Of a DNA stretch of 64,000 nucleotides, positions 51,632 to 55,351 are shown one piece after another. A model generated the notes under the pieces. That model had not been told where the DNA came from, did no database searches, and was given only the letters and a program-made list of their open reading frames with translations. The position numbers and the translations under genes were made by a program. The DNA lies in contig NZ_SSHH01000001.1 of the NCBI RefSeq assembly GCF_004965515.1, positions 437,280-501,279 on the forward strand, written 5' to 3'. Position 1 is the first letter of the stretch, and the number at the start of each line of letters is the position of its first letter. The stretch comes from Alteraurantiacibacter aquimixticola. Its GTDB lineage: Bacteria; Pseudomonadota; Alphaproteobacteria; Sphingomonadales; Sphingomonadaceae.

Positions 51632-51667
51632 ACTGGCGGCGCGGCGTTTTCGACAATGACCGAAAAG

Positions 51668-52107
51668 GTGCCAGGGGGCCTGTAAGCCGGGTTCTGTGTC
51701 CACCCACGGTATCCTTCGAAAAGGACCTATCGGCGGCGGCAGCCATTCATCTGGGCGAGGGATTGCTCCCTGCGCTCTAGCAACCAACCCGGGTCTCTCG
51801 GAGCGAAACACTCCTGCTTTTCAGCGCGAGACCCCTATTTGGTCTTGCTCCGGGTGGGGTTTGCCATGCGGGTCCTGTCACCAGTCCCCCGGTGCGCTCT
51901 TGCCGCACCCTTTCACCCTTGCCTGTGCCCTTTAGGGGCCATCGGCGGTATACTCTCTGTGGCACTTTCCCTGAGCTTCGGCCCGAAAGCCTCACCCGGC
52001 GGGCGTTACCCGCCACCCTTGTTTCGTGGAGCCCGGACTTTCCTCGCACCTCCGACCCGCTCATCCTGAGCCTGTCGAAGGAACGCGGCTGCCCGGCCCC
52101 CTGGCAC
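51668..52107 (-). ncRNA. rnpB: RNase P RNA, type A
   Basis: The catalytic RNA that trims tRNA 5' ends, about 440 bases. The 5' conserved core is GAGGAAAGTCCGGGCTCC (minus strand, near 52030-52047). The P1 ends pair as GTGCCAGGGGGCC with GGCCCCCTGGCAC (13 bp). P2 is GGCAGCC with GGCTGCC. The 3' core has AGAACCCGGCTTACAGG. The P3 region (about 52057-52088) consists of a copy of the dispersed repeat found around the GIY-YIG cassette. The 5' end is only five bases from the ampD stop, so its promoter must lie in ampD or it is processed from that transcript. Confidence 0.96.
52058..52085. repeat. Solitary copy of the dispersed repeat inside rnpB (R1)
   Basis: 28 bases centred on CCTGAGCCTGTCGAAGGA. 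It matches R3 of the GIY-YIG cassette at 22 of 28 positions and occupies the P3 hairpin of RNase P RNA. Outer pairs CCGC/GCGG and inner TCCT/AGGA keep a hairpin possible. Confidence 0.65.
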
Positions 52108-53637: not shown

Positions 53638-54339
53638 TTAGCCGCCTTCCACGCGGTAGGAAAGCGGGGAGAACCCGTGCTCACCGTCTTCCCAGAACGT
53701 CACGTCGCGCGATTGTCCGATAATCGCCCAGATGCGCCCGTCACGCGCGGCGTCTGCGTGGTCGGTGGCGGAGGGGCGGGCAGGGCCTTCCGGGTGCGAG
53801 TGGTAATAGCCGATCACCTGCGGCCCGCCTGCGCGAGCAGCGCGATGCGCGTCGATCAGGGGCTGGGGGGCAATCTCGAAATGCGTGCTCGGGGTGGAGT
53901 GGACGTTGCGCGTGGGCACGATGGCGGTGATGTTTGCGCCTTCGCCCAGCAGGATGCCACAGCATTCGTCGGGGTGAGCAGCGGTGGCTCTGGCGATGAG
54001 CTGCGCAAGCACGGCAGGCGCAACCTCGATCCCCGTTCGTCGTGAGCTTGTTGAAGGACCGCTTTTCCCTCTAGCCAGCTGCGATATCCTGTCCCAATCG
54101 CCCCGGATTAGCGCGAGCTTCTTCGCGCGCGACCACCCCTTGATCCGCCGCTCTGCCGCCAGAGCCTCCTCGCGCGTTGGAAACTCCTGCGACCACACAA
54201 GCTCGACGGGCAGGTATTTGCTGGTAAAGCCGGGGACGAGGCCGCTCTTGTGCTGGGCAATGCGATGATCGAGGTCATCAGTTTGACCCGTGTAGAACAC
54301 GCCGCCACGGCAGTGGAGGAGGTAGGTCCAGAACGGCAT
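53638..54339 (-). CDS. GIY-YIG nuclease domain fused to JAMM peptidase domain
   Basis: 233 residues. Residues 1-90 are a UPF0213/URI-type GIY-YIG domain: TYLLHCRGGVFYTGQ (the GIY and YIG strands), DLDHRIAQH with the catalytic Arg, and REEALAAERRIKGW with the metal Glu. Residues about 104-233 are a JAMM/MPN+ domain with YYHSHPEGPARPSATDHAD, the complete HxH-x7-S-x2-D zinc site. The linker GPSTSSRRTG is encoded by one end repeat of the 54031-54391 cassette. Insertion of the cassette therefore seems to have created the fusion. Whether both domains act together is unknown. Confidence 0.8.
   Translation of the reverse strand: MPFWTYLLHCRGGVFYTGQTDDLDHRIAQHKSGLVPGFTSKYLPVELVWSQEFPTREEALAAERRIKGWSRAKKLALIRGDWDRISQLARGKSGPSTSSRRTGIEVAPAVLAQLIARATAAHPDECCGILLGEGANITAIVPTRNVHSTPSTHFEIAPQPLIDAHRAARAGGPQVIGYYHSHPEGPARPSATDHADAARDGRIWAIIGQSRDVTFWEDGEHGFSPLSYRVEGG
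54031..54061 (-). repeat. Terminal inverted repeat R2 of the GIY-YIG cassette
   Basis: 31 bases, beginning CCCCGTTCG on the plus strand. It is the inverse of R3 with 27 of 31 identical. It encodes the linker of the fusion protein. Confidence 0.7.
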
Positions 54340-54360
54340 GATCTGGAGCTAAGAGAAGGG

Positions 54361-54391
54361 CGGCCCTTCGACAAGCTCAGGGCGAACGGGG
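54361..54391 (+). repeat. Terminal inverted repeat R3 of the GIY-YIG cassette
   Basis: 31 bases, CGGCCCTTCG at the left and GCGAACGGGG at the right. Its GGGG end is the likely ribosome site of the divergent rluD-like gene starting at 54398. Confidence 0.7.
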
Positions 54392-54397
54392 AATGAC

Positions 54398-55351
54398 TTG
54401 TCCGAAGCACAAACCATCACCGGCACCATCGCCAGCCCGGGCCGCCTGGACAAGGCTCTGGCCGAGCAGACGGAGCTGTCCCGCGAACGCATCAAGGCGC
54501 TGATCGGCGAGGGAAAGGTGGAGCTGGACGGCCAGCCTGCCACCAGCGCCTCCGCCAAGGCGCAAGCCGGATCGCGCTTTTCCATCCACATTCCGCCCCC
54601 AGACGATCCACAGGCTATCCCACAGGATATCCCCATCACGGTCGTCTATGAGGACGAGTATCTGATCGTGGTCGACAAGCCTGCAGGGATGGTCGTCCAC
54701 CCGGCCGCGGGCAATCCCGATGGCACGCTGGTCAACGCCCTGCTGCATCATTGCCGGGGCCAGCTGTCGGGCATTGGCGGCGTGGCGCGGCCGGGTATCG
54801 TCCACAGGATCGACAAGGATACCTCCGGCCTGCTGGTCGTCGCCAAGAGCGACAAGGCGCATGAGGGGCTAGCGCGGCAATTTGCCGACCATTCGATCGA
54901 GCGGGCCTATCTCGCCCTGTGCAACGGCCATCCGCACCCCGCTGCGGGAACGATCGACGAAAGAATTGGCCGTTCGGACGCCAACAGAAAGAAAATGGCG
55001 GTGCTGCCCAAGGATTCCTCGCGTGGAAAACACGCGGTGACGCATTACAAGGTTCTGCAACGTTTCGACCATTGTTCGTTAATCGAATGCCGCCTGGAAA
55101 CAGGGAGAACACATCAGGTACGTGTTCACCTTGCGTCAATCGGTCATGCGCTATTGGGAGATCCAGTCTATGGACGTGCAAATGCGCAGATTCGCCCGCT
55201 TCTCAAGCGCTTGGGTTTCGAACGGCAAGCCCTCCACGCAGCGATTCTCGGCTTTGACCACCCCATCATCGGTAACTTTGTGCGTTTCAGCAGCGAATTG
55301 CCTGCTGATATGCGGGAACTGATCGACGAAATGGGTCATTCCAATCGATGA
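54398..55351 (+). CDS. rluD: RluA-family 23S rRNA pseudouridine synthase (RluD-like)
   Basis: 317 residues. An N-terminal S4 RNA-binding domain (RLDKALAEQTELSRERIKALIGEG) precedes the catalytic domain with HRIDKDTSGLLVVAKSD, where the first Asp is the nucleophile, and the C-terminal GRTHQVRVHLASIGH. It makes pseudouridines in helix 69 of 23S rRNA if truly RluD. The start is TTG 54398; its GGGGA ribosome site is the tip of repeat R3. An ATG at 54393 is out of frame. Confidence 0.88.
   Translation: MSEAQTITGTIASPGRLDKALAEQTELSRERIKALIGEGKVELDGQPATSASAKAQAGSRFSIHIPPPDDPQAIPQDIPITVVYEDEYLIVVDKPAGMVVHPAAGNPDGTLVNALLHHCRGQLSGIGGVARPGIVHRIDKDTSGLLVVAKSDKAHEGLARQFADHSIERAYLALCNGHPHPAAGTIDERIGRSDANRKKMAVLPKDSSRGKHAVTHYKVLQRFDHCSLIECRLETGRTHQVRVHLASIGHALLGDPVYGRANAQIRPLLKRLGFERQALHAAILGFDHPIIGNFVRFSSELPADMRELIDEMGHSNR

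Follow-up and report, generated by a model that had tools for sequence, protein, structure and literature searches.

Small GIY-YIG nuclease genes between clade-specific REP repeats: a candidate class of minimal mobile element in bacteria

Among described systems, the REP/REPIN repeats and their RAYT partners (TnpA-REP, a Y1 HUH enzyme associated with GTAG REPs) belong to those closest to the locus analysed here, which lies in a 64,000-nt stretch of DNA from Alteraurantiacibacter aquimixticola (hereafter, the window). As in that system, a lone small nuclease gene is placed between inverted REPs, gene-less doublets of the repeats occur, and the REP type is tied to the enzyme clade. Unlike the RAYT system, the enzyme is a GIY-YIG protein instead of a Y1 HUH protein, and the repeats are either of the CGTC kind or of a type that we call T2 (CCTGAGC..TGTCGAAGG). 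Free-standing GIY-YIG homing endonuclease genes, as they are generally understood, share with the present element a selfish-looking GIY-YIG gene that is likely to depend on host recombination, but they differ from it in that inverted REP ends and gene-less relatives are found here, at sites that do not correspond to alleles of a single target. Similarities are also noted with insertion sequences and their MITEs, where gene-carrying and gene-less forms share ends and one site can be filled repeatedly; unlike these, the sole protein here is a GIY-YIG nuclease, which is of no known transposase type, and no target duplication was found.

The CGTC REPs, which include dRS3 and RPE-4/RPE-6, provide a further point of comparison. 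Di Nocera et al. (PMC3733652), writing in 2013, stated that they "lack a dedicated transposase". According to the passages of that paper that concern us here, they have an AT-led stem of 8–9 bp with a loop of 4–5 nt, predominate in Alphaproteobacteria and include Neisseria dRS3, and what spreads them is left open (PMC3733652). The dRS3 pattern is given as ATTCCC(N8)GGGAAT in the relevant part of PMC3898611, with almost 700 copies in meningococcus. The string "GIY" occurs nowhere in the text of Di Nocera et al. 2013 (PMC3733652). In the open-access literature, preprints excluded, no paper among the matches listed pairs GIY-YIG with REPs. The preliminary description of this locus named no established account of such a pairing. 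Searches of the same literature, again excluding preprints, with T2 sequence strings also found no paper.

The element occupies positions 54030–54392 of the window, where a nuclease gene is held between inverted ends of about 41 bp. The left arm (54030–54070, + strand) and the right arm (54352–54392, − strand) each comprise 41 nt, made up of a T2 REP and subterminal sequence, with a complementarity of 83% and a spacing of 281 nt. Both REP cores (54034–54059, +, and 54363–54388, −) are two mismatches off the typed consensus, and the two REP-core matches in the window compare with none in 100 shuffles. The inverted repeats that the preliminary description saw around a GIY-YIG frame are thus real; the 31-bp repeats that it took as the ends are present, but the arms reach about 10 bp beyond them, into sequence that recurs in other T2 doublets of the genome. 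The third, solitary copy that it placed in rnpB was also recovered, as a T2 core at 52066–52081 (+) within a match to RNase P RNA (51667–52104). This REP lengthens the apparent hairpin, presumably P3, of the RNase P RNA. In two relatives that share another genus (L146 and L149), sequence similar to this is found in the same hairpin, which is short in the other ten relatives compared.

The enclosed gene (54073–54339, − strand) encodes a GIY-YIG nuclease of the small UPF0213-like proteins. The whole ORF to which it belongs matches Pfam PF01541 (E 2.2e-15), and the enclosed frame matches the solved UPF0213 protein 1zg2 in the PDB (E 7.7e-13), which places the catalytic domain in the GIY-YIG nuclease superfamily. 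Six sequences of a related group (clade A, below) have Y6, Y17, R27, H31, E64 and N83 invariant, residues that we take to have catalytic roles. The preliminary description held that only a GIY-YIG domain is encoded between the repeats. A GIY-YIG domain match is present there, but the frame leaves the element through the left repeat and continues into a JAB-domain protein, so that the ORF (53638–54339, −, 233 aa) is an in-frame fusion in which a domain search places GIY-YIG at residues 3–74 and Prok-JAB at 109–216, with a REP-encoded linker between them. All 16 PADLOC matches of this protein fall in the JAB part and none in the GIY-YIG part; with one clade-A protein, PADLOC gave two weak matches (0.0024 and 0.0053).

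PF01541 has six matches in the window's genome, five in frames of 101–236 aa; the sixth lies in a frame of 688 aa, which we take to be UvrC. When the flanks were read by eye, a palindromic repeat was seen on both sides of all five small genes. Two of these, the window's gene and C1:413332, are flanked by T2 repeats (CCTGAGCTTGTCGAAGG-type), and the other three by repeats of the CGTC type, here T1 (CGTCATTCCCGCGAAGGCGGGAATCCAG; CGTCATTGCGAG..AATCCAG; TCATCCCAGCAAAAGCTGGGATC). At C1:48293, one of these three, the inverted alignment of the flanks is poor (12) and the direct alignment good (51). T2 has 25 copies in this genome at up to three mismatches, and 16 of them form eight inverted doublets 52–66 bp apart. 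The genome-wide T1 count covers one pattern, with the CGTCATTGCGAG type outside it, and gives 34 copies, 22 of them in eleven doublets 41–64 bp apart. The doublets are oriented like the repeats around the nuclease genes. As in the REP/RAYT system, inverted REPs thus enclose an enzyme gene and have matching doublets dispersed in the genome, whereas the Y1 HUH partner of that system was not found: Y1_Tnp (PF01797, the Y1/RAYT-type transposase) has no match in the window's genome.

The likeness between element and doublets extends beyond the REP itself. Twelve T2 loci, with 23 halves, were used to profile the 16 nt on the inner side of the REP core. Against this profile the window element scores 19.0 at its left inner end and 16.3 at its right one, close to the median of the REPIN halves (17.7). 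The mean for 50,000 random 16-mers of the window is −19.6 and their maximum, which can be the element itself, is 16.27. The genome's other clade-B element scores −31 and −24. Because of these subterminal scores, the fit of the T2 doublet family to the window element goes deeper than the REP core; the doublets share its ends and would be its MITE-like, gene-less relatives. T2 REPs fold no better than shuffles (z −0.31 and 0.10), whereas a T1 REP does (z −4.6). With the 5-bp stem and 11-nt loop of its computed fold, T2 lies outside the stem rule published for CGTC REPs.

A search of 143 alphaproteobacterial genomes with PF01541 gave at least 150 matches, listed down to about E 2e-11. We took in the 133 listed matches in frames of up to 426 aa and left out 17 UvrC-like matches in frames of at least 480 aa; because of the E value to which the matches reach, missing clade A or B genes are to be read as soft absences. 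For the first 95 genes, 94 of them usable, an inverted flank score of at least 20 was found at 45; in the controls, this score was reached by 3/470 pairings across genomes and by 8/710 placements after shifting. The tree of the 133 genes, which has few columns and a bootstrap that had not settled, and from which the clades are defined, resolves clade A with 75 rows (support 88/92), B with 20 (100/97, including the window's nuclease), C with 22 (89/88), D with 12 (99/99) and E with 4 (99/66).

Flanking follows these clades. When the best inverted or direct flank alignment was required to score at least 18, with 2 of the 133 rows too short, repeats were found at 57/74 genes of clade A, 17/19 of B, 2/22 of C, 0/12 of D and 0/4 of E. 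The repeat enrichment around GIY-YIG genes for which the preliminary description had asked is thus present in two clades (74/93) as against three others (2/38; Fisher p 5.8e-16). In the inverted sense alone the numbers are 48/74 for A, 17/19 for B, and 1, 0 and 0 for C, D and E (1/38). No repeat pair at threshold is seen at 19 of the 93 usable clade A/B genes. The two clades also differ in the repeat they carry: hairpin T1 is on both sides in 29/74 clade-A and 0/19 clade-B loci (shifted background 1/1062), T2 in 0/74 and 10/19 (background 0/1062), a split with p 1.6e-9 over rows that are not phylogenetically independent. Counting loci with at least one side, clade A has T1 in 50 and T2 in 4, the latter being T2 motifs on one side in 4/74, clade B has 0 and 14, and clade D 1 and 1; C and E have none, and the background is 47 and 23 of 1062. 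The clade-specific pairing of GIY-YIG genes with REPs is well supported.

REPs are found mostly in intergenic positions and downstream of coding regions, as the cited part of PMC3733652 has it, and could by chance or bias pile up beside small intergenic genes in REP-rich genomes. This reading is already contradicted by the controls with other clades and with neighbouring ORFs, and we give it almost no credence. The other GIY-YIG clades, as noted, are nearly devoid of flanking repeats. Over 4 kb in the clade A/B loci, 4/254 neighbouring ORFs are flanked, compared with 31/67 nuclease genes, and in 57 loci from the scan of named genomes described below the corresponding numbers are 4/186 and 36/57, so that unrelated genes are not flanked equally often, the outcome that the preliminary description had set against its own idea. 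Among neighbouring ORFs of less than 200 aa in these loci, one REP type on both sides was found in 1/91 and 0/76.

Repeat copy number tracks the gene, another expectation of the preliminary description. At least 10 T2 matches are present in 13/15 genomes with a listed clade-B gene and in 10/128 others (p 1e-10), with a reversed-pattern control of up to 5 per genome; the table lacks nearly all genomes with three or fewer T2 matches, which leaves the threshold tests unaffected. No such relation was seen between T2 copy number and the clade-C gene (p 0.51). For T1, a listed clade-A gene is present in 11/17 genomes with at least 5 matches of one pattern and in 30/126 others (p 0.001; clade C, p 0.13); 30 of the 41 clade-A genomes have fewer than 5 matches of this pattern, and some of the CGTC types fall outside it. 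Against the relation, among the matches listed, the gene of the matching clade is absent from 10/23 T2-rich and 6/17 T1-rich genomes, and the repeats may outlive the gene. In G077, 87 T2 matches accompany a single PF01541 match among those listed, an orphan REP population. A Y1 transposase was considered as an alternative partner and set aside, since Y1_Tnp is not associated with T2-rich or T1-rich genomes among the 143 (p 0.60 and 0.77) and is without a match in the window's genome.

The pairing is not confined to Alphaproteobacteria. From 219 genomes of the phylum we took 57 non-alphaproteobacterial loci (17 + 40), a part of the matches listed, and sorted them by eye on the C-terminal motif. 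At the threshold of 18, 4/8 clade-A-like loci, 1/1 B-like locus and 0/48 of the rest are flanked. Clade A was also used to scan named genomes, where the best 80 of 558 matches gave 78 usable loci from Pseudomonadota, Planctomycetota, Chloroflexota (Anaerolineae and Dehalococcoidia), Nitrospira, Elusimicrobia, Myxococcota, Bipolaricaulota, Daviesbacteria and others; metagenome bins are numerous among them, with assignments as deposited. Among these best 80 of 558, 75/78 loci have a CGTC REP no more than 260 bp away on one side or more, and 50/78 have one on both sides; the shifted control, which covers the both-sides count only, gave 4/882. One of the named loci is from Neisseria gonorrhoeae (L299), with repeats of the dRS3 pattern, and proves little by itself because dRS3 is so common in Neisseria. 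The records L341, L342 and L339 of the plasmid collection seem to be chromosomes deposited under the wrong heading, with 2.2 Mb for N. gonorrhoeae and 3.7 Mb for S. meliloti 'pSymB'.

The ends of the clade-A elements have the features of CGTC REPs, i.e., the CGTC tag at the head, an AT-led paired stem, a CCA tail and an arrangement in paired doublets. In 83 sequences picked by tags alone, with 24 distinct arms, the stems have a mean of 4.95 pairs out of 6, compared with 3.33 (sd 0.10) for shuffled arms, and 190/205 hairpin tails are of CCA-like kinds as grouped here. Unlike the CGTC REPs as described in 2013, which had no dedicated transposase, these repeats have a nuclease gene between them.

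In the window, the element sits in the gap of about 20 bp between the divergent start codons of the JAB-domain gene (53638–54033, −) and an ORF at 54398–55351 (+), which from its sequence we take to encode an RluD-like pseudouridine synthase, and whose orthologues mark the insertion site in relatives. Empty sites at orthologous loci, for which the preliminary description suggested looking, exist. Among the 30 best same-family loci, from 134 genomes with a JAB match, 23 have a gap of 19–45 bp, four including the window have REP-nuclease-REP, two (L122 and L130) have a solo REP, and L123 is unresolved. The same-genus set has 30 loci, window included, from 40 genomes searched: ten are empty (19–44 bp), eleven are filled on the JAB strand, three are filled in the opposite sense, and in six no JAB was found. 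Of the 24 loci with JAB, 10 are thus empty and 14 filled, in both orientations. On a tree of 35 rluD genes, the filled or empty state of 27 rows implies 7 changes, and the orientation in 17 rows implies 3.

Two pairs of rluD sisters carry divergent nucleases, which implies repeated insertion or replacement at this site. L420 and L430 have an rluD identity of 0.86 and a nuclease identity of only 0.69, and the L420 nuclease groups with those of L127 and L137 from another genus (99/97, midpoint root). For L434 and L441 the values are 0.90 and 0.75, and the elements have opposite orientation. The conflict between nuclease and host trees could reflect replacement or inversion in place of fresh insertion. 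The identities correlate at 0.70, and part of the set looks vertical. No target-site duplication was seen at JAB-rluD, where native gap bases are missing from filled loci and the empty relatives closest to them are diverged in sequence.

In empty-site relatives, JAB has its own ATG beside the gap of about 20 bp. The window has no ATG, GTG or TTG there, and insertion appears to have taken away the JAB start codon, leaving the GIY-YIG::JAB fusion in frame. Nuclease, REP and JAB form one open frame in 10 of the 11 same-strand same-genus insertions, L432 being the one out-of-frame case; these are not ten independent cases, because they are partly descendants of one event. An example of the REP-read linker is SGPSTSSGRT. 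The fusion may be partly domesticated, and a repeat may in this way have given rise to a new gene. The nuclease is under purifying selection, with dN/dS values of 0.11, 0.18, 0.14, 0.03 and 0.10 in five pairs. The values of 0.11 (window copy against L126 copy, dS 1.6) and 0.18 come with dS of 1.6–1.9, and 0.10 comes from four differences. In a sixth pair the two changes present are both silent, and a seventh is saturated.

This selection, and the fusion that remains open in nearly all same-strand loci, would also be expected if the enzyme served its host in repair or in policing REPs, with the gene kept near REPs for regulation and not for mobility. Small COG2827 genes are discussed together with nucleotide excision repair in Caulobacter, one of them with an SOS box (PMC1839093, in the section concerned). 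The presence of elements in both orientations at one site, the tree conflict in two sister pairs and the patchy presence of the gene argue against such a role, which we consider improbable.

A second site is found on Sphingobium plasmids, in the gap between fnrL and a response-regulator gene, where three aligned loci carry a clade-A-type element. The gene of Sphingobium TomTYG73 (L350) is frameshifted, the other two aligned copies being intact over that stretch. At the same place two relatives have only a CGTC-stem-loop-stem-GACG palindrome that equals the outer REP halves fused (perfect in TomTYG64, imperfect in TomTYG74). L347 and L352 have no such repeat in this gap, and L348 has an untagged stem-loop. 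The fused palindrome could have arisen by deletion between the cores of the two palindromes, or could be a target. The idea that it is the usual scar of excision was discarded, because such forms are rare (2/205 hairpin tails of named loci).

If the palindrome were a pre-insertion target, the REPs could be targets and not ends, spread by other means, with GIY-YIG genes cutting them and being copied into them as homing-type passengers. The solo REPs at JAB-rluD in L122 and L130 can be read in the same way, and GIY-YIG is a classic homing nuclease fold. We nevertheless think this unlikely, since element and doublets share subterminal sequence beyond the REP, REP types are clade-specific, copy number tracks the gene, and the window's genome is without a Y1 transposase that could spread the REPs.

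We think it likely, instead, that the feature in the window is an enzyme-carrying copy of a minimal mobile-type element with the T2 doublets as gene-less relatives. Such an element would consist of a REP end, one GIY-YIG nuclease gene and an inverted REP end, and clade-B nucleases would be to T2 REPs what RAYTs are to GTAG REPs, with clade-A nucleases in the same part for CGTC REPs. The nuclease would recognise the REP ends, as duplex or extruded hairpin, and nick or cut at these ends and/or at the target. GIY-YIG enzymes make plain hydrolytic breaks with no covalent joint, and copying would therefore fall to host recombination and repair, which would fill the break with a copy of the element or of a REP doublet. 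To our knowledge, GIY-YIG enzymes do not join DNA, so host factors must be assumed. The JAB-rluD gap would then be a site struck repeatedly by this element family.

The clade-specific pairing, the shared ends, the repeated filling of one site and the purifying selection on the gene would best be explained by a nuclease that moves the repeats. The preliminary description had proposed a minimal REP/REPIN-like mobile system with a GIY-YIG enzyme; the pairing stands and is wider than proposed, including a second clade with CGTC REPs, and it is mobility that we infer. On balance we favour the view that these elements represent a new class of bacterial mobile element, present in many phyla, with REP ends and a GIY-YIG protein of about 90 aa as the only enzyme. 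The CGTC REPs (dRS3, RPE-4/6 and others) would derive from this class, whose members would move by nuclease breaks and host repair without a transposase and, as in GIY-YIG::JAB, give rise to new genes by fusing reading frames through a REP.

The occurrence of the pairing in many bacteria suggests that a large class of bacterial repeats has a partner enzyme that had escaped notice. Once each repeat family can be given an enzyme of its own that is open to testing, the spread of CGTC REPs becomes an experimental question. If the proposed reading is true, a nuclease outside the known transposase types would join the enzymes that move bacterial DNA, and a function would be provided for many genes annotated only as "GIY-YIG nuclease family protein".
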